Shown in pieces: positions 4,705 through 22,005 of a stretch of 28,954 nucleotides of DNA. The translations under genes and the position numbers were made by a program. Position 1 is the stretch's first letter. Every line of letters starts with the position of its first letter. This DNA is from a virus: the IMG/VR virus record IMGVR_UViG_3300009161_000173, positions 1 through 28,954 of that record; one strand, 5' to 3'. The notes under the pieces are model-generated. The model saw only the letters and a list, made by a program, of their open reading frames with translations, was not told the origin of the DNA and did not search any database.

Positions 4705-5478
4705 ATGAGTGAGCAAAAAACGACACCTTACCAAATCGAACACCTGCCTTTAGACGCGCTTATCCCATACGCGAACAATGCGAGGAAGCATTCGCCCGAA
4801 CAGGTGGCGCAAATTGCCGGGTCAATTAAAGAGTTCGGCTTTAACAACCCAGTGCTCGTCGACCGAGGGAGCGGAATCATCGCAGGACACGGGCGCGTAA
4901 TGGCGGCGCAAAAGCTGGGGATGAAAGAAGTTCCATGTATCCGCCTTTCTCATCTTACCGACACACAGCGAAGGGCGTACATTCTTGCCGACAATCGTTT
5001 GGCTGAAATCGGTGGCGGCTGGGATGAGGAGCTTCTCAAAGCAGAGTTGACCGGATTACTCGGGGAAGGCGTCGACATCAGTGGACTCGGATGGGAAGAT
5101 GGATGGAACGATTCGGACGCGATTGAACCTGCGTACACGAGAAAAATTGAAACTCCGAATTACGAACCAAAGGGAGAAAAGCCAGAGGTGCAGGAGTTGT
5201 TCGACGACTCAAAGGAAAAATCTTTGCTGGAAAAAATAAATGCAAGCGGTCTACCGGAAGCGCAAAAATCTTTTTTAAAAAAAGCAGCTCAAAGGCATGT
5301 GATTTTTAATTATGAAAAAATCGCTGAATATTATTCACATTCAGAAAAAGAAGTTCAAGAATTAATGGAAGACTCCGCTCTTGTTATTATTGATTTCGAT
5401 AAAGCAATAGAACTTGGATACGTAAAATTGACAGAAGAAATTTCTGCTGAATATTTAAAGGACAATCCAAATGAATGA
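4705..5478 (+). CDS. ParB-domain protein (modification-associated type)
   Basis: This 257-residue protein begins with a ParB N-terminal/sulfiredoxin-type domain (residues ~10-105): an LIPYANNARKHS segment at 19-30, the signature IIAGHGRVMAA at 58-68, and DTQRRAYILADNRL at 86-99. The C-terminal ~100 residues form a separate helical region with a MEDSALVIIDFDKAIELG segment. There is no ParB centromere-binding HTH and no ParA nearby, so plasmid partition is unlikely. Phage ParB-like proteins of this type commonly lie beside DNA methylases or DNA-modifying glycosyltransferases. The next gene is such a glycosyltransferase and overlaps it by eight bases. Base composition drops sharply to AT-rich from about 5170-5220, inside this gene. 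There is no Shine-Dalgarno sequence at the ATG. Confidence 0.85.
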   Translation: MSEQKTTPYQIEHLPLDALIPYANNARKHSPEQVAQIAGSIKEFGFNNPVLVDRGSGIIAGHGRVMAAQKLGMKEVPCIRLSHLTDTQRRAYILADNRLAEIGGGWDEELLKAELTGLLGEGVDISGLGWEDGWNDSDAIEPAYTRKIETPNYEPKGEKPEVQELFDDSKEKSLLEKINASGLPEAQKSFLKKAAQRHVIFNYEKIAEYYSHSEKEVQELMEDSALVIIDFDKAIELGYVKLTEEISAEYLKDNPNE

Positions 5479-6328
5479 TGACAAATTAGTTGCGTTTATC
5501 TTAACGCATGGCAGACCGGATAAAGTCTTTACTTTAAGAACATTACGCAAGCACGGATTTACTGGAAGAATTATTTTGGTGTTAGACGACGAAGACAAAA
5601 CAGCACCTGAATACAAAAAGAATTTTAAAGAAGAAATAGAAATATTTTCAAAGACTGAAATCGCAAAAACATTCGATGAAGGCGATAATTTTCAAAATAG
5701 AAAAACGATCGTTTATGCTAGAAATGCTTGTTTTGAAATAGCACAAAAGCTTGGAATAAAATATTTTATTCAGCTAGACGATGATTACGTAAGCTTTAGT
5801 TATAGGCATAACGAAAAGCACGAATACGTAGACAAGGTAAATTTGAGAACGCTAGATTCAATTTTCGAAAGTCTTTTAAATTTTTACAAATCTATTCCAG
5901 CAACTTCAATAGCCATAACGCAAAACGGAGATTTCATCGGAGGAAAAAATGGGAACATCGGAAAAAAGCTGAAGCTAAAACGAAAAGCAATGAACACGTT
6001 TATCTGTTCAACCGAAAGACCGTTTACGTTTATCGGTAGGATCAATGAAGACGTGAATACGTACACGCAAAAAGCGAGCGTCGGGATGCTTTTTTTGACG
6101 GTTCCAAATTTGTCTGTGTCTCAAAAACAAACGCAAAGCAACTCAGGAGGAATGACGGAAACATATCTGCAACAGGGGACGTACGTTAAAAGCTTTTACA
6201 GCGTTATGTTTATGCCTTCGAGTGTAACGATAAAACCAATGGGGCCGGTAAACCCTAGACTCCACCATTCTGTAAAATGGGCAAATACGGTCCCTTGCAT
6301 TCTGTCTGAAACTTTAAAGAAAAAATGA
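5471..6328 (+). CDS. TET-associated-type glycosyltransferase (TAGT), DNA base modification
   Basis: This 285-residue protein matches my recollection of the phage TET-associated glycosyltransferase family, the catalytic relative of GREB1, proposed to add sugar to hydroxylated DNA bases. Visible features are FILTHGR at residues 9-15, the nucleotide-sugar strand VLDDED at 37-42, VYARNACF at 81-88 and the metal-binding QLDDDY at 101-106. The second half carries an EDVNTY segment and ends in a basic tail. It overlaps the ParB-domain gene by eight bases and the small terminase gene by four, so it is tied to both. No TET/JBP dioxygenase or cytosine methylase is visible; the substrate base might be made elsewhere. 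Codon use is strongly AT-rich compared with flanking genes, suggesting acquisition by transfer. Confidence 0.72.
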   Translation: MNDDKLVAFILTHGRPDKVFTLRTLRKHGFTGRIILVLDDEDKTAPEYKKNFKEEIEIFSKTEIAKTFDEGDNFQNRKTIVYARNACFEIAQKLGIKYFIQLDDDYVSFSYRHNEKHEYVDKVNLRTLDSIFESLLNFYKSIPATSIAITQNGDFIGGKNGNIGKKLKLKRKAMNTFICSTERPFTFIGRINEDVNTYTQKASVGMLFLTVPNLSVSQKQTQSNSGGMTETYLQQGTYVKSFYSVMFMPSSVTIKPMGPVNPRLHHSVKWANTVPCILSETLKKK

Positions 6329-11830: not shown

Positions 11831-12727
11831 ATGTCGAACACACTCGGAACTTTAAATAGTGCGCTGATCCTTCAGACAGCGTTGTCGCTCGTTTTCACTA
11901 AACGTCCTCTCTTGCAAGCAATTAGCAAGGATCTGTCGCCGATGGGAGCGAAACAAAACCAAACAATCCTCACTCGCTTGAAGAGCATCCCTGCTGTCGT
12001 CAATGACGACCAGACGCTGCCCAGCTTCACGACGAGCGATGTTCCCGTCACGCTGGATCACGTAAAGCGTGTTGGCGCAACCTTCACTTCTGCTGAACTC
12101 AATTCGACTTCCCGTAATTTGATTGAGGAACTTGCCGAACCCATTGCGGTTGCAATGGCAAACAGCATCGTTGATTCCGTTGCTGCGTTGTGGACATCTG
12201 GAAATTTTTCCAACTACACGTTGGACAATACTCCCGGATACAACACGCTTATCGAACTTCGCAAGGCGTTTATTGATCGCGGGATCAATGGCAACCGCTA
12301 CCTGAGCGTGAATGCTGCAACCTACGCAGCCCTGTTGGAGGATCCGTTGATTACACGTCCGAACCGTTTTATGTCGGTTGGAACTGACATCATCCAGACT
12401 TCTGAAATTGCTGGCGTAGCCGGGTTCTCAAACATCTTTGAATACCCAGCCACACCAACTACTAACTTCATGACCGGGTTTGCTTGCACGCCTGAAGCTG
12501 TGGTATTGGCTTCCCGCGCTCCGCAGGACCCTCGCGAGGCGTTCGGTGGCAACATCCCCTTCCCTGGTAACTTTGAAGTGCTGACCGACCCAATGACAGG
12601 ATTCTCCGCTGCTGCCGTTGAATTCATCAACCCGCTCACGCTTGATGTGACCGTGTACCTGAAATGGATTTACGGCGTTGCAGTGGGCAACTCTGCTGCC
12701 GGCCAGCGCCTCGTCTACAACGACTAG
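11831..12727 (+). CDS. Major capsid protein (HK97 fold, possibly P22 coat-like)
   Basis: This 298-residue protein should form the capsid shell. The pattern resembles the P22 gp5-like coat group: an N-terminal helix, a TLDHVKRVGATFTSAEL strand pair near residues 75-92, the long ELAEPIAVAMANSIVDSVAAL helix near 99-120, then a LIELRKAFIDRGINGNRYLSVNAATYAALL unit near 140-170 and a C-terminal beta segment ending in YLKWIYGVAVGN. It has no long N-terminal delta domain, which fits a separate scaffold gene upstream. The start lies 13 bases after the upstream stop without a Shine-Dalgarno sequence. Capsid assignment is firm; the subfamily is less sure. Confidence 0.87.
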   Translation: MSNTLGTLNSALILQTALSLVFTKRPLLQAISKDLSPMGAKQNQTILTRLKSIPAVVNDDQTLPSFTTSDVPVTLDHVKRVGATFTSAELNSTSRNLIEELAEPIAVAMANSIVDSVAALWTSGNFSNYTLDNTPGYNTLIELRKAFIDRGINGNRYLSVNAATYAALLEDPLITRPNRFMSVGTDIIQTSEIAGVAGFSNIFEYPATPTTNFMTGFACTPEAVVLASRAPQDPREAFGGNIPFPGNFEVLTDPMTGFSAAAVEFINPLTLDVTVYLKWIYGVAVGNSAAGQRLVYND

Positions 12728-13613: not shown

Positions 13614-13916
13614 ATGCCATCATTCGGGGTATCCAGTAATTTTGGAGGAACACCTCCAGCGGGAGGGATTCTTCAAAGCTCAGAAGAGTCAATCGACAAA
13701 GAGGTTGCAACAATTAAAGGCGCAACAGGAAGAACAGAAGAAGTATTGGCAAAACCTCGTCAGGTTAGAAATGTCACCATAAAAAGCAAAGGCGCTGCCG
13801 GACTTATTGCTGTTGCAGCAGGCCCAATGAGTAGCGGCACTGTAACAAGCGCAAAGTATTCTGAAACAAACGACGACTTTGGCACAAGCGAAGTCACAAC
13901 AACTTTCTACTCTTAA
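13614..13916 (+). CDS. Tail protein, tandem paralogue A
   Basis: This 100-residue beta-rich protein starts MPS-FG and continues with a KEVATIKGATG segment, a VRNVTIKSKGAAGLIAVAAG strand pair and a C-terminal block (SETNDDFGTSEVTTTFYS). The same four blocks recur in order in the next gene, so the two are probably an ancient tandem duplication. Placed right after the terminator-like gene, one or both may form the tail tube. It starts four bases after the upstream stop with no Shine-Dalgarno sequence, suggesting reinitiation. Confidence 0.7.
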   Translation: MPSFGVSSNFGGTPPAGGILQSSEESIDKEVATIKGATGRTEEVLAKPRQVRNVTIKSKGAAGLIAVAAGPMSSGTVTSAKYSETNDDFGTSEVTTTFYS

Positions 13917-13919
13917 TTT

Positions 13920-14225
13920 ATGCCTTCAACATTTGGGATTCATTCAATCAGCGGGGAACTAATTGAAGCTGTTGATTGCGAAGTCAAAGCGGACGTAAAA
14001 GAGCTGCTTACCTTCGCGGGCGCACATAGCGCAGCGCAGGCTGTGGACGTTACGTTTAGTTTTACTGTAAAAGGCAAAGGCACTACGGCTATTGTGGTTG
14101 GGGCTGGAGCCGGCGCACCGGATGGCGTGGATGGCCATGTCGTTATTACAAACGTAACGAAAACCCAAACCAATGAAGACTGGGAAGGATTTTCGTACAC
14201 CGGTGTCGGTTACAAATACGCGTAA
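13920..14225 (+). CDS. Tail protein, tandem paralogue B (tail tube candidate)
   Basis: This 101-residue beta-rich protein has the same blocks as the upstream paralogue: MPS-FG start, a KADVKELLTFAGAHS segment, VDVTFSFTVKGKGTTAIVVGAG, and a closing TQTNEDWEGFSYTGVGYKYA-like strand pair. It is more compact and regular than paralogue A. The predicted sandwich suits a small tail-tube subunit, though typical siphophage tube proteins are longer (roughly 150-250 residues). It starts three bases after the stop of paralogue A. Confidence 0.7.
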   Translation: MPSTFGIHSISGELIEAVDCEVKADVKELLTFAGAHSAAQAVDVTFSFTVKGKGTTAIVVGAGAGAPDGVDGHVVITNVTKTQTNEDWEGFSYTGVGYKYA

Positions 14226-14246: not shown

Positions 14247-14690
14247 ATGAAAATAGGACAGCGTATAGATTTCGTACAAGACAACCTTCACCCGCTCAAG
14301 AGCCCTAACACGGACCTTGTAGCGGCGTGGTTGACGTGTGGTGGGTCACTTTTAAAAGAGGATCCATATTCATGGACCGTTGAGGAAACACCCGCAGGGC
14401 CAAAACAGACGATCACTTACCACATTGACGGTGAAGTGAATGTGACCAATCAAGGGGAACCTCTTTCATTTCAGGAATTTCGTCGGCGCTGGATGGATAA
14501 AGAATGGTGCGAAAAAAACGATGAGCACCTGATTTCATACATGCGTTTATTTCGGGACAACTCGGTGAAGTTTAAAGCGTGGATTAAGGAAGCGAAACCC
14601 GCCGTATTGATTCGCCGAGGAAGCCGAGTGGCAATCATTCATCCGGATCTTCCCGAAGCCCGAAAAACACAAATTCTTGCAGAACTATGA
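14247..14690 (+). CDS. Hypothetical tail-region protein
   Basis: This is a 147-residue protein that I do not recognise. It mixes helices and strands, with a Trp-rich middle (FRRRWMDKEWCEKN) and a C-terminal basic region (VLIRRGSRVAIIHPDLPEARK). It overlaps the tail chaperone gene by four bases and follows the tube candidates, so it is probably involved in tail assembly. There is no Shine-Dalgarno sequence at ATG 14247. No function is assigned. Confidence 0.65.
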   Translation: MKIGQRIDFVQDNLHPLKSPNTDLVAAWLTCGGSLLKEDPYSWTVEETPAGPKQTITYHIDGEVNVTNQGEPLSFQEFRRRWMDKEWCEKNDEHLISYMRLFRDNSVKFKAWIKEAKPAVLIRRGSRVAIIHPDLPEARKTQILAEL

Positions 14691-15091
14691 CACCAATAAA
14701 CGACTTTTTAGATGGGGAGAAAACCATTGCGGGTATGGTTTTCAGACCGTTCACAGTGGGCTCAAAACTATTATGCTCACAAATGAAACTAAGCATGTTC
14801 ATTGAGCCTGAAATTCCTATTACAGAAGAGGAAGCAATTCGTCAAATCATGGCATTTTCTTGGTTTCATGTTGCGCCTTTACGTGAAGTTCTTTGCGCAC
14901 TTCGAGAAGGGCGTGGAAATGATGAAGCTTTACTGTTTTCGTTTGGCGTTGAACCTCACGCGATTGAGGAAATTGTTTCTGAAATCAATCGGATTTCTGA
15001 AAGAGCAAAAAAGAACGCGGTTCAGGTCGTCGAAAAAAATACAACTAAAGACAAGGATGCGCCGGGAAACTCTGTGGGCCAGATTGGATAG
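14687..15091 (+). CDS. Tail assembly chaperone, short form (lambda gpG-like)
   Basis: This 134-residue helical protein is in the slot before the tape measure where siphophages carry G/GT chaperones, which coat the tape measure during tail assembly. Helices with an FSWFHVAPLREVLCALREG segment fill the middle, and a charged, flexible tail follows. The last codons contain a canonical -1 slippery heptamer (15064-15070), so this is the product made when no slip occurs. It overlaps the upstream gene by four bases. Sequence similarity to lambda G was not evident; the call rests on order and the frameshift signal. Confidence 0.8.
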   Translation: MTPINDFLDGEKTIAGMVFRPFTVGSKLLCSQMKLSMFIEPEIPITEEEAIRQIMAFSWFHVAPLREVLCALREGRGNDEALLFSFGVEPHAIEEIVSEINRISERAKKNAVQVVEKNTTKDKDAPGNSVGQIG

Positions 15092-15315
15092 AAAGCTGCA
15101 TCTACGGTCTGGCCAATAACTACGGATTTTCAGAGCACGACATTTTATGGACCATCCCCTACACTCGAGTGCTCAAATACATGCACGCGGCTATGTGGGC
15201 GAACGGTGCATGGACAATAAAGCAACAAGACGTTGCGCCGGTGGAGTTGTCAAAACTAATGGATTTATCAGCATCGGCCGCAATTTATGAGGACGAAACT
15301 TTCTGCGAAAATTGA
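14687..15315 (+). CDS. Tail assembly chaperone, -1 frameshift form (lambda gpGT-like)
   Basis: The second product of the same start. A -1 slip at G GGA AAC (15064-15070, codons 127-128) moves ribosomes into a frame open from 15049 to the TGA at 15313-15315, adding 81 residues for a total of 209. The extension reads as a true protein (DWIESCIYGLANNYGFSEHD, then ILWTIPYTRVLKYMHAAMW), like T domains that bind the tail tube. It has no good start codon of its own at its 5' end, which argues for frameshift expression. Its end overlaps the next gene by 29 bases. Confidence 0.82.
15064..15114 (+). promoter_or_regulatory. Programmed -1 frameshift signal (slippery site plus stem-loop)
   Basis: The heptamer GGGAAAC at 15064-15070 is in the correct X XXY YYZ phase with the short chaperone frame and differs from the lambda G/T site (GGGAAAG) in only the last base. 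After a six-base spacer, GGCCAGA (15077-15083) pairs perfectly with TCTGGCC (15108-15114). An inner TAGA/TCTA pair (15089-15092 with 15101-15104) is possible in the loop. Spacer and stem match known -1 signals. Confidence 0.85.
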
Positions 15316-16009
15316 AGAGGCTCGGTTCAAGCAATGGCTTGGAAACGTCCTTCGCACGTGCAAACGGGAGGTGTCCGTGGTTGCGCAGGAGAATTTCAAA
15401 TATGTAATTCGCGATTGCTTTTCGCTTACGCCACCAATGGCCGACACGTCTTACGCTAAAGGATTTGCGGCATCAAAACGAGCGATCAAAAAAGATACCG
15501 GAAAAGCGTTCCGCGCGCTCACTGAAAAAGGCTTGGCTCAACTTGCAAAGCGAAACCAAAAACTCCCTTCAGGAGGAATGTCGGCGGCGCTGAAATGGTA
15601 TAGGTCACAACTCGATGCGAACAAAAAAGTTCATTTGTCAGGCGATAAACGTCTGATTTCAAAACTCCAGCTTGAACAGCTTCGGCAGCATTTAATCAAC
15701 AACATCGGCATCACTGCCGCCGGTTGGGTTAAGGCAGCGAGAGAATTGAATGTGCGACCAGCGCCCCCGGATTGGGTCACAAAGCACACGGGCAAAAATC
15801 CGGGGTCGTATCAATTTCGAGTGTCCGGCAATTCGCTGAGTATGGTTGCAAAAAACACATCGAAGCACAATCGCTCGGACTACATTCAATCGACCATCTA
15901 CCGGGCGTTCCGCGCGAGGACAAACAACATCATGAAGAACATCACCAAAGCGCTTGCGGCAGGCAAGGTTGACGCTGCCGCAATTGATTGGGGACAAAAG
16001 GTGCGATAA
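15287..16009 (+). CDS. Hypothetical basic tail-region protein
   Basis: This is a 240-residue, strongly basic protein that I do not recognise. The N-terminal two thirds is helical (AKIEEARFKQWLGNVLRTCKRE and several Lys/Arg-rich helices). A beta segment near residues 170-190 (SYQFRVSGNSLSMVAKNTS) is followed by a helix rich in Arg and Asn. It lies between the chaperone and the tape measure, overlapping the frameshifted chaperone by 29 bases, and ends three bases before the tape measure ATG. A tail completion or minor tail role is plausible but unproven. Confidence 0.65.
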   Translation: MRTKLSAKIEEARFKQWLGNVLRTCKREVSVVAQENFKYVIRDCFSLTPPMADTSYAKGFAASKRAIKKDTGKAFRALTEKGLAQLAKRNQKLPSGGMSAALKWYRSQLDANKKVHLSGDKRLISKLQLEQLRQHLINNIGITAAGWVKAARELNVRPAPPDWVTKHTGKNPGSYQFRVSGNSLSMVAKNTSKHNRSDYIQSTIYRAFRARTNNIMKNITKALAAGKVDAAAIDWGQKVR

Positions 16010-16012
16010 CCT

Positions 16013-17587
16013 ATGGCATTTCAAGCAGCACTCAGCATGGATGTCAGCGGGTTCACCGCTGGCATTAACAAAGCATCCAGCGGCATTGCAAGCCTTGCGA
16101 ATACCGTCAAGGGCTTGGCTATTGTTGAATATGGGGGGAAGGCGCTAGGGGCCATGGCGGACGTTGTAGGGGGGGCTTTCAAAGGGATGTACAGCGCGAT
16201 GGAAGCAGGGGGCGCGCTTGTTGATTTATCGGAACAGACCGGGCTTGCCGTCGACAAATTAATGGTGCTTCAAACCGCATTCCAACAGGCGGGACTCGGG
16301 GCCCAGGAGGTGCAACCTGTCGTCAATAAAATGCAGAAGGCCATTGAGACTGCCGCAACCGAGGGCGGAACTGCTGCTGCTGTTTTTGATAAACTGGGAC
16401 TGAGTGCCGGGAAGCTTTCAGGGATGAAGGCTGACGAGCAATTGACGGCAGTTGGCGAAGCAATGAACAAAATTCAAAACCCAGCGCAAAAAGCATCCGT
16501 AGCGATGGAACTTTTTGGAAGAGGAGGTGGGAAGATGCTGGCGTTGTTCGCGAGCGGTGGATTAGACGACGCCGCGACAGCGGTGGGCAACCAGGCGCAG
16601 CTGATGAAAGAGAACGCTGGCGTGTTTGATAAGGTCACAGACATCCTTGGAACCGCTGCGACAAAACTCCAAGGGCTTTACGTGGGCATCGCAAGCAAGG
16701 TTGCGCCGATGCTGATGGAGGCGGTTGAAGCCTTTAACTCGGTTGACCTTTCAGGGCTTGGCGAACAAATTGGAACAATTGTTTCAGTCGTTCTTGAAGC
16801 GTTTTCGACCGGAGTTCTCGGGCAGCTCACTTTGGATTCAATGAAATACGCGTTCGTGTGGGCGGTGAACTTTGTATCATCAGCGCTTGCCGGGGTATTT
16901 TCGGGGATACTTCAAACCGTTGTCAGTACGTTCAGCTTAGTCACCTCGGCAGACTTTTGGGGAGGAGTGTTGACGGCTTTGGTAGGTGCTGCGCAGGAGT
17001 TCATCGCTATTCTGGCGGATGGCGTTGCAGGCATCCTTGATGAGTTTGCGACGGTGCCCGGGATTGGCGGTAAAGCGGGGAGCGCAGCAACAACCGTGCG
17101 CAACTACGCTGGTGAAGTTCGTGGGCGCTCACAAGACAATGTCATTTCAGGGCTGGAACTTATTCAGCCTATGATTCAAGGAATGAGCATGGACCTGAAA
17201 GGGGCCGTGGTTAACGCGGCAAACGCGGCACCGCAAATGGCGCAATCAACAGCCATCCCAGATTTGATTTCTAAACTTCAAGAAGGTGCTGCCGCAAGGC
17301 AAGAAAAAGTAAGGCAGGAGAACCCATTCAAAGAAAAAGACCTTGGCGGGGGGTTGTCTTTGAACGCGCAAAAGGGGCAAGCCATTGGAGATTTTTCTTT
17401 CGCGTCGTCGATGGCAAAAATTGGCGGCAGTCAATTTGGACCGGCCATGGATACGGGAACAAATCAACTTGCCGTTTCTCGGCAACAGTTAGAAGAGCAG
17501 CGCAAAATGTCGCAGCAACAGGGCCAATCAAATGCGCTGCTTAAACAAATCGCCGAAGCAAAAGGCGGCAACGCAACTTGGGGTTAA
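16013..17587 (+). CDS. Tail tape measure protein
   Basis: This 524-residue protein should set tail length and pass into the cell at DNA injection. It opens with FQAALSMDVSGFTAGINKAS, a typical tape-measure beginning, followed by Ala/Gly-rich helices with a SEQTGLAVDKLMVLQTAFQQ block near residue 70 and an ELFGRGGGKMLALF block near 160, both common in phage tape measures. A hydrophobic region at ~275-345 could span membranes. The C-terminus is charged and Gln-rich. At roughly 0.15 nm per residue the tail would be about 80 nm. It follows the chaperone region, as expected. Confidence 0.9.
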   Translation: MAFQAALSMDVSGFTAGINKASSGIASLANTVKGLAIVEYGGKALGAMADVVGGAFKGMYSAMEAGGALVDLSEQTGLAVDKLMVLQTAFQQAGLGAQEVQPVVNKMQKAIETAATEGGTAAAVFDKLGLSAGKLSGMKADEQLTAVGEAMNKIQNPAQKASVAMELFGRGGGKMLALFASGGLDDAATAVGNQAQLMKENAGVFDKVTDILGTAATKLQGLYVGIASKVAPMLMEAVEAFNSVDLSGLGEQIGTIVSVVLEAFSTGVLGQLTLDSMKYAFVWAVNFVSSALAGVFSGILQTVVSTFSLVTSADFWGGVLTALVGAAQEFIAILADGVAGILDEFATVPGIGGKAGSAATTVRNYAGEVRGRSQDNVISGLELIQPMIQGMSMDLKGAVVNAANAAPQMAQSTAIPDLISKLQEGAAARQEKVRQENPFKEKDLGGGLSLNAQKGQAIGDFSFASSMAKIGGSQFGPAMDTGTNQLAVSRQQLEEQRKMSQQQGQSNALLKQIAEAKGGNATWG

Positions 17588-19631: not shown

Positions 19632-19949
19632 CTTCCCGCTTTATTTTCAAACGCAATCACCCGGGGAAGCGATTGGACTTTTGGGTTTCAAGCGAGAAGC
19701 CAAGGGTCGACATCTCCGCTAGTCGATTTCACTGATTGGGAATTCTCTTCCACGCTGAAAACCGCAGACGGCGTGGCAATGACGACTCCGAGTTTTTCAT
19801 TGCACACACCCGAGTGCCCCGTGTTTAGTTTATCTCACACGCAGACAGCTTTGCTCGCCAAGCAGTCCGGCGCCGTGCTCACCATCAACGCCGTCCGCCC
19901 AGATGGCGCTTTTTTAGTTTTCGCGCGTGGGCGCATCACCATTTCTTGA
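19629..19949 (+). CDS. Small beta-sandwich protein preceding tail fibre
   Basis: This 106-residue beta protein has an N-terminal RGSDWTFGFQ strand, a DFTDWEFSSTLKTADG unit and closing strands ending ARGRITIS. From memory, similar short domains with this WTF/DFT-W pattern often precede or begin collagen-like phage fibres and baseplate receptor proteins, so a fibre-attachment role is likely. ATG 19629 follows the Cys-rich stop by four bases and completes the third AGGTATG element. The collagen-like fibre gene begins four bases after its stop. Confidence 0.68.
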   Translation: MLPALFSNAITRGSDWTFGFQARSQGSTSPLVDFTDWEFSSTLKTADGVAMTTPSFSLHTPECPVFSLSHTQTALLAKQSGAVLTINAVRPDGAFLVFARGRITIS

Positions 19950-19953
19950 CCCT

Positions 19954-22005
19954 ATGAGTTGCGATTCAAATAACGGTTGCGGGCCACTGATCATTGAGCT
20001 CTTTACGGGAGTTCCGGGAATTCCCGGTGAATCAACAATGCCCGGACCACAAGGGCCAATCGGACCACAGGGACCAATCGGGCCTCAGGGGCCGCAAGGC
20101 GTTCAAGGGCCGACAGGAAACACCGGCGCGCAAGGAAACACCGGCGCGCAAGGTGAACAGGGAATCCAAGGCGTGCCCGGAATCCAAGGGCTGAAAGGTG
20201 ACACTGGCGCAAAAGGGGACACCGGAAATACAGGTTCGCAAGGCGCGAAGGGCGACACGGGAGCGACAGGTTCACAAGGCGCAAAAGGCGACACCGGAAA
20301 CACAGGGGCGACTGGAGAACAAGGCATCCAAGGGATTCAGGGGGTACAGGGGTCAAAAGGTGATACGGGCGCAACAGGGCCGCAGGGTGAACAAGGAATT
20401 CAAGGCGTAAAAGGCGACACAGGTTCGCAGGGCGCAAAGGGAGATACCGGCGCGACCGGACCGCAAGGGGATAAAGGGGACCGTGGCGACCGCTATGCCT
20501 CCACATCGACTTCGAGCGTTGTCCTTGGCACTGGATCAAAGACTTTGACACTTGCCCCACTGGGGCTCGGGTACACGCTGGCGCAACCAATCATCATCGC
20601 CAGTCCGATTGGAGTCATGCACGGCGTGGTGACTTCGTACGCGCCACTGACTGGTGTTCTTGTTGCCGAAATTGCTTCGTACACAGGAAGTGGAACGGCA
20701 ACCGATTGGACGGTGAATCTCGACGGCGTTGCTGGTGTGCAAGGGCCACAGGGGCCAACCGGCGCAACAGGAGATACTGGAGCCACTGGCGCAACAGGTC
20801 CACAAGGGCCAAAGGGGGATACGGGAGCGCAGGGAAATGCAGGGGCCAAGGGAGACACGGGCACGACCGGTGCCAAAGGTGATACCGGGGCGCAAGGACC
20901 AGCGGGCGAAACAGGGGCAACGGGTGCTAAGGGGGACACGGGTACAGCGGGGCAAGGGCTAACTAATCGCGGCGCATGGAATACAACGAATACATACGCT
21001 GCCTACGATTTTGTGAGCAACGGCGGCAGCTCGTACATTGCGCTGAAATCAGTGCCGGCCAACACGGCAACGACCGATGCCGAGTTTTGGCAGGTGATGG
21101 CGATCAAAGGAAACGACGGCGCGACCGGATCAAAAGGCGACACGGGCGCGACAGGATCAACGGGAGCGCAAGGTGCAAAAGGTGACACGGGGTCACAGGG
21201 GCCGCAAGGTGAGCAAGGAATCCAGGGCATACAAGGCGCCAAGGGTGATCAAGGCAACGTCGGCCCACAAGGCCCAGAGGGCACTGTTACGATCGTAGCT
21301 GGCAGCATCGTCAGCGCATTTACTGGCAACGGATCCGCAACAGCATTTTCTCCGGTCGAAGGCTACAACGGCACGGACGCAGGCTCGTACATTGTAAGCG
21401 TTGGCGGCATCGATCAGCGCCCTACAACGGATTGGACGATCTCGAGCGCCAACAGCGGCACGATCACCTTTGCCAGCGCACCACCCAATGGCGCGTCAAT
21501 CGTCGTGCGCGCGTTTGTGGGGGCATCTGGAGGCGGCGGAGGAAGTGGAGACGCTACATCGCTTCAGGGCCGCGCATTAGCCGACACGGCACCGACTGAC
21601 GGGCAGGCAGTCGTTTGGGATGAAGCAAATGAAACGTGGAAACCCGGCACTGTTATAACAAACAATACATCCGCGCAACGGGCTTTTGCTATCGGTGACG
21701 CGTCAACTGCTGGAGACACAGGTTTTGCAATTGGGCCATACGCCAGAGCTGGCGCCTATGGGATGGCGATTGGCGCAGAAACGGTGGCAGGTCCATACGA
21801 GTTAATTATTGGGAGCGCCGCAGCGGCTCCTGCTTATAACATCGTGCAAATTGGTCCATACAGTCTTGGGGGGATGTCAAACGACATTCAAAATCACACT
21901 ACTCGAATTGATTTTCTGGACGGCGAAGAAGCAAACACTCGCAGCAAAATCAACGAAATTATCACATTTGTGAATTCCATCGGCGCTAACATCTCGCCTC
22001 TCTAA
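19954..22005 (+). CDS. Collagen-like tail fibre with adhesion domains
   Basis: This 683-residue trimeric fibre protein has three Gly-X-Y collagen-like stretches at residues ~19-179, 261-336 and 386-444. Between the first two is a beta domain (180-260). Between the second and third is a short segment (~340-385, RGAWNTTNTYAAYDF then SSYIALKS and EFWQVMA) that looks like a family 5/12 carbohydrate-binding module. Residues ~452-522 form another fibre beta domain (GNGSATAF, VGGIDQRPTTDWTI). Residues ~575-620 show YadA-head-like AIG-x-x-A repeats, and the end is a helix suited to trimerisation. It should bind the host surface. Gly-rich coding repeats make the DNA repetitive. Confidence 0.88.
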   Translation: MSCDSNNGCGPLIIELFTGVPGIPGESTMPGPQGPIGPQGPIGPQGPQGVQGPTGNTGAQGNTGAQGEQGIQGVPGIQGLKGDTGAKGDTGNTGSQGAKGDTGATGSQGAKGDTGNTGATGEQGIQGIQGVQGSKGDTGATGPQGEQGIQGVKGDTGSQGAKGDTGATGPQGDKGDRGDRYASTSTSSVVLGTGSKTLTLAPLGLGYTLAQPIIIASPIGVMHGVVTSYAPLTGVLVAEIASYTGSGTATDWTVNLDGVAGVQGPQGPTGATGDTGATGATGPQGPKGDTGAQGNAGAKGDTGTTGAKGDTGAQGPAGETGATGAKGDTGTAGQGLTNRGAWNTTNTYAAYDFVSNGGSSYIALKSVPANTATTDAEFWQVMAIKGNDGATGSKGDTGATGSTGAQGAKGDTGSQGPQGEQGIQGIQGAKGDQGNVGPQGPEGTVTIVAGSIVSAFTGNGSATAFSPVEGYNGTDAGSYIVSVGGIDQRPTTDWTISSANSGTITFASAPPNGASIVVRAFVGASGGGGGSGDATSLQGRALADTAPTDGQAVVWDEANETWKPGTVITNNTSAQRAFAIGDASTAGDTGFAIGPYARAGAYGMAIGAETVAGPYELIIGSAAAAPAYNIVQIGPYSLGGMSNDIQNHTTRIDFLDGEEANTRSKINEIITFVNSIGANISPL

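Follow-up and report, generated by a model that had tools for sequence, protein, structure and literature searches.

A conserved −1 frameshift signal in the candidate tail assembly chaperone gene of a metagenomic phage and its relatives

A phage from an environmental metagenome and its relatives very probably rely on a programmed −1 ribosomal frameshift within a gene for a tail assembly chaperone to make lambda-like G and G-T proteins, a reading that we draw from comparative sequence analysis. The anatomy of the signal, its conservation, selection on the −1 frame as coding sequence and the position in a tail operon are direct observations. The window, by which we mean the whole stretch of DNA analysed, comprises positions 1 to 28,954 of IMG/VR record IMGVR_UViG_3300009161_000173 (28,954 nt), and the frameshift site described below lies on its plus strand.

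The probable frameshift site in the window

The 0-frame gene (14687–15091), a candidate gpG-like tail assembly chaperone, is an open reading frame of 134 aa with 128 codons to the shift point, and its 3′ end reads GAT GCG CCG GGA AAC TCT GTG GGC CAG ATT GGA TAG. This reading places G GGA AAC (15064–15070) in X XXY YYZ phase, as the original prediction had it, and the heptamer is followed by a 6-nt spacer (15071–15076), with identical spacing in relatives, and then by a hairpin whose arms, GGCCAGA (15077–15083) and TCTGGCC (15108–15114), are perfectly complementary over the seven base pairs foreseen. The 0-frame stop, TAG (15089–15091), lies inside the hairpin, 18 nt past the heptamer. Past the shift point, the −1-frame extension (15070–15315), a candidate T domain, starts with the codon CTC and translates as LCGPDWIESCIYGLANNYGFSEHDILWTIPYTRVLKYMHAAMWANGAWTIK..., until TGA at 15313–15315. 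The 81 codons of open frame and the predicted fusion of 209 residues (128 + 81) both came out at the lengths first proposed, and the label ‘complete lambda-type’ given to the signal holds for its anatomy.

The extension had also been described as having no start codon of its own, which stands for its beginning but not for its whole length. The −1 frame of the window opens only six codons ahead of the heptamer; the earliest start codon in it is a GTG, codon 34 counted from the heptamer, so that the first part of the extension cannot derive from its own initiation. The 8,075 codons of the window genes hold 35 in-phase heptamers of the XXX(AAA/TTT)Z type, and the heptamer alone is therefore weak evidence, such that proof must be comparative.

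Conservation of the junction across relatives

IMG/VR was searched with the window protein and then with alignments, giving 5, 19 and 80 loci, which after removal of duplicates left 78 distinct loci, including the window and Akkermansia phage Moulinsart (that is, 77 relatives besides the window). Because these relatives were recruited by the protein sequence of the extension and not by the heptamer, conservation of the heptamer is an independent result. An in-phase XXXAAAC occurs at the junction in all 78 loci, each of which also carries a homologous extension, so that the lack of conservation in relatives which had been named as grounds for rejecting the lambda-type reading was seen for neither heptamer nor extension; AAAAAAC is found in 42, GGGAAAC in 27 (window included) and CCCAAAC in nine. 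The second codon is always AAC, with no AAG version among the 78 loci. By contrast with this constancy, the first triplet is exchanged wholesale, its 0-frame residue becoming Gly, Lys or Pro, with about six triplet switches on the best tree, at least two or three of them forced by starred branches. Protein constraint alone would not lead to such wholesale exchange, and conservation across the relatives removes chance as the origin of the signal in the window.

Sequencing error or a broken gene might be suspected from the frame change itself, which offers nothing more in favour of that explanation, but 78 distinct loci, drawn from many metagenomes and a sequenced isolate, show the identical change at one and the same base; the chance that this is the cause is negligible, and we consider it already refuted. 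Transcriptional rather than ribosomal slippage could also yield the fusion, and the run of six A residues in the AAAAAAC loci might suit it. It is nevertheless very improbable, as the GGGAAAC and CCCAAAC loci have no long homopolymer, and a conserved hairpin at a fixed 6-nt spacing is typical of a ribosomal stimulator.

Two further features of these loci were noted. A Shine–Dalgarno-like stretch of the GGGAGGA type lies 5–20 nt upstream of the heptamer in 49 of the 78 loci (e.g. L072, L060, L049), as against 10% in control stretches; it resembles the dnaX arrangement, is weak in the window (AAGGA) and is confounded by conserved residues, and we do not count it as an upstream stimulator. Two different G-T junctions (L071 and L087) were found on one contig, IMGVR_UViG_3300043391_000200, near opposite ends of its 35.6 kb, and this contig may be chimeric or unite two phages.

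The downstream hairpin

Positions 15077–15114 fold as a single hairpin of −17.2 kcal/mol (RNAfold; z −4.1), with none of 200 shuffles as stable. The helix is longer than first described, with the 5′ arm extended by UUG to 15086 through added U-G, U-G and G-C pairs and an inner helix stacked on it; that inner pairing, TAGA (15089–15092) with TCTA (15101–15104), had been raised as a possibility and is present in the predicted minimum-energy fold of the window.

Across the family, 74 of the 78 loci retain six or all seven of the pairs with the spacing unchanged, and the next best hairpin registers are the same helix shifted by one or two pairs. Among 46 representatives, 90.4% of cells are paired, compared with 16–48% when the 3′ arm is slid by one to three bases, and double-change cells number 34 as against 10.2 in shuffles. 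Sixty-six loci have no base other than C or G at either place of pair 1, and in 64 of them the pair is C-G or G-C; its 3′ member falls on the wobble position of an Ala codon. Pair 7 changes from A-U in the window to G-C in L006. Independent events at these pairs are few (two to three changes on the tree for pair 1; for pair 7 about five matching contrasts against one contrary, p 0.22), and covariation alone is thus suggestive. Codon usage in the arms is also restricted, with Pro codons being CCR in 78 of 78 loci (70% elsewhere) and the Leu codon of the 3′ arm YTG in 74 of 74 (55% elsewhere). Conservation of register and this codon restriction carry more weight than the covariation, although related sequences are not independent there either. 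Rfam returned no match at the frameshift site.

The extension as a protein

The original prediction took the extension to encode protein-like sequence, and the relatives agree. Across the homologous extensions, residues L2, P5, A16, G20, P31, H40, W44, G47 and T50 are invariant or nearly so, with the conserved T residues starting at the first codons past the heptamer, where L2 and P5 are invariant. In 15 pairs of relatives, over the first 44 codons, pN/pS is 0–0.27 in the −1 frame, whereas in the other two frames it is about 0.4–5, or undefined where there are no synonymous changes, with nearly all values about 1 or above and the lowest (0.395) from a single +1-frame pair. Across 243 pairs, codon positions 1, 2 and 3 of the −1 frame received 1117, 393 and 3209 substitutions, respectively. 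The extension is under purifying selection in this frame.

The same residues bear on the idea that G and T are translated separately, by internal initiation or by termination–reinitiation at T. Internal start codons do occur in the T frame, and in the Moulinsart record (GenBank ON453896) a short T piece is annotated on its own beside G, in just this way. We give separate translation very little credence, however, since conservation in T begins with the first codon past the heptamer while the −1 frame of the window opens only shortly ahead of the heptamer and lacks a start until well inside the extension, and since it gives the conservation of XXXAAAC no role.

The candidate G and T proteins and their tail operon

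The G protein is 17–57% identical in 31 relatives, and conservation extends to both sides of the junction. Neither Pfam nor PHROG gave a significant match for any of 32 members; the T of one relative matched phrog_978 ‘tail assembly chaperone’ weakly (E 0.039), and a sequence search of the PDB returned no match for G or T. The structure model of G has a pLDDT of 81, and that of T alone is of low confidence (pLDDT 69, pTM 0.34); the structure modelling left out the Moulinsart row. Foldseek searches of the PDB with G gave nothing significant, the comparison of the G model with the HK97 chaperone 2ob9 was weak and fell below unrelated rows (Z 2.8, rmsd 5.9 over 83 residues), and the top matches to G in a viral structure library are unnamed phage proteins. 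Scans of genome contigs with the G-T family found no bacterial genome that carries it, and a phage collection gave nothing by DNA search and no tblastn match with the window protein.

The gene following T, of 240 aa (15287–16009, plus strand), shares 29 nt with the end of the extension and stands between T and the gene for the tail tape measure protein (16013–17587, plus strand; phrog_9483, E 1.2e-14). Upstream of G, a 147-aa gene and two 100-aa genes occupy the place of the tail tube genes, which are assigned (13614–14225) by position only. This order of tail genes, G, T, one gene and tape measure is the same in 76 relatives, wherever contigs reach and genes are alike enough to be matched, and a place upstream of the tape measure gene fits a lambda-type G/G-T reading. 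The protein family is new, while the mechanism and genomic place are textbook.

Comparison with known systems

In lambda, G and G-T are reported to be made at about 30:1 and to be absent from the virion, with T linking the tape measure to the tube protein (PMC5009743). A check confirmed that lambda uses GGGAAAG, as the original prediction had it, and so differs from the window in having AAG and not AAC as second codon; the window differs further in its conserved hairpin and in the additional gene that separates T from the tape measure gene. Profile comparison (hhalign) with lambda gave P 0.034 for G and P 0.0071 for T, the latter over a 16-residue LARExG-like stretch, neither being significant. 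Two heptamers of the window family have been described in haloarchaeal viruses, the g-t sites of HCTV-1 and HCTV-2 being given as G_GGA_AAC and A_AAA_AAC in the same review (PMC5009743); these viruses have archaeal hosts and are likened here by their published heptamers alone.

Burkholderia phage KL1 offers a close parallel in layout. Its gp18/gp19 site reads GGGAAAC TGA, with a predicted frameshift and stem-loop (PMC3483164), and on checking the KL1 sequence we find the same heptamer as in the window, the adjacent stop of most relatives and, as in the window, one gene between chaperone and tape measure gene, though its T is longer (about 122 aa). We considered KL1 as a homologue and rejected it, the proteins not being detectably related.

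The only named member of the G-T family is Akkermansia phage Moulinsart (ON453896), which was first found through a divergent relative as a weak match (E 0.6–0.8) and then confirmed by profile comparison as having homologous G (hhalign E 4.8e-8) and T (3.7e-10). Its two genes, WAK79076 and WAK79077 (ON453896.1 10632–11332; L021:5633–6333), look like G and T of one frameshifted chaperone, with A AAA AAC TAG where they join, and three genes separate T from the tape measure gene, versus one in the window. The frameshift is unannotated in the record, in which the two are separate hypothetical proteins, just the omission of the fusion that had been expected of frame-by-frame annotation.

A different phage, Verrucomicrobia phage P8625, has a terminase resembling that of the window. 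Its gp18 (L102:9118–9738), in the matching place before the tape measure gene, was tried as a counterpart and set aside. It is a single-frame protein of 206 aa, about the length of the fusion, whose likeness to T is weak; no frameshift signal was seen in it and no such heptamer in the genes just before it.

Proposed mechanism and the role of the stop codon

That the shift occurs, at what rate, and that the products act as chaperones we infer from these observations. Most ribosomes would read 14687–15091 to give the gpG-like protein of 134 aa, while a minority would pause at the hairpin (15077–15114), where GGA is read by tRNA-Gly and AAC by tRNA-Asn. The two tRNAs would then slip together to GGG and AAA, one base back, after which translation would continue in the −1 frame to 15315, producing the G-T fusion of 209 aa. 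If the analogy with lambda holds, G would coat the tape measure protein, the T domain would recruit the tail tube protein, and neither would stay in the finished tail. The tRNA-Asn of E. coli is reported to slip in tandem only (PMC5009743), and the fact that the homopolymer triplet is never lost in 78 loci would follow from such tandem-only slippage. Counting against this main reading, A_AAA_AAC is far less shift-prone than A_AAA_AAG in E. coli (PMC5009743); so do the lack of a significant family or PDB sequence match for G and T, the weak likeness of fold to 2ob9 and the small number of independent covariation events.

The position of the 0-frame stop raises the question of what drives the shift. 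The stop is immediately behind the heptamer in 61 of the 78 loci; in the others, the window among them, it is 3 to 33 nt further on. It is conceivable, if unlikely, that the same −1 shift is driven mainly by slow termination, with the stop in the A site, slippage in the P and E sites on GGA AAC or AAA AAC, and the hairpin secondary. The frequency of adjoining stops is in keeping with this, the KL1 site as published is laid out in the same way (PMC3483164), and a stop beside the take-off site matters in the bypassing of T4 gene 60 (PMC5009743). Yet heptamer and hairpin are kept in the window despite its distant stop, and both remain constant through about nine changes of stop position on the tree; tandem-only slippage of tRNA-Asn, moreover, fits the strict XXX triplet with no need of a stop.

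Beyond the hairpin-stimulated tandem slip that we favour, one could speculate that the G-T family represents a distinct kind of switch, marked by the strict XXX AAC, the mostly adjacent stop and the Shine–Dalgarno-like stretch upstream, in which the tandem slip would be in competition with release factor and the speed of termination would tune it, the hosts perhaps being Verrucomicrobiota; we regard this as rather doubtful.

Other features of the window

Elsewhere in the window, a ParB_N-domain gene (PF02195, E 5.6e-7) and, immediately behind it, a gene for a TET-associated glycosyltransferase (TAGT, PF20691, E 9.5e-32) lie at 4705–6328, a pair that suggests modified DNA bases. A long collagen-repeat protein (PF01391, E 7e-41) lies in the tail-fibre region (19927–22005). 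The 298-aa protein at the capsid position (11831–12727) is 80–86% identical in L017, L018 and L029, whose tail proteins are mostly 34–51% alike; identity so far above that of the tail proteins is a sign of exchange between head and tail modules.

Significance

These results add a phage protein family that neither Pfam nor PHROG matches significantly. They also supply 78 aligned natural frameshift sites, varying in heptamer and hairpin, as a useful test set for frameshift predictors, one of which, PRFect, was trained on the tail chaperones of SEA-PHAGES genomes (PMC10885494). The set corrects a false gap in frame-by-frame annotation, including that of the deposited isolate Moulinsart, and extends a conserved frameshift signal to about 75 previously uncharacterised relatives.
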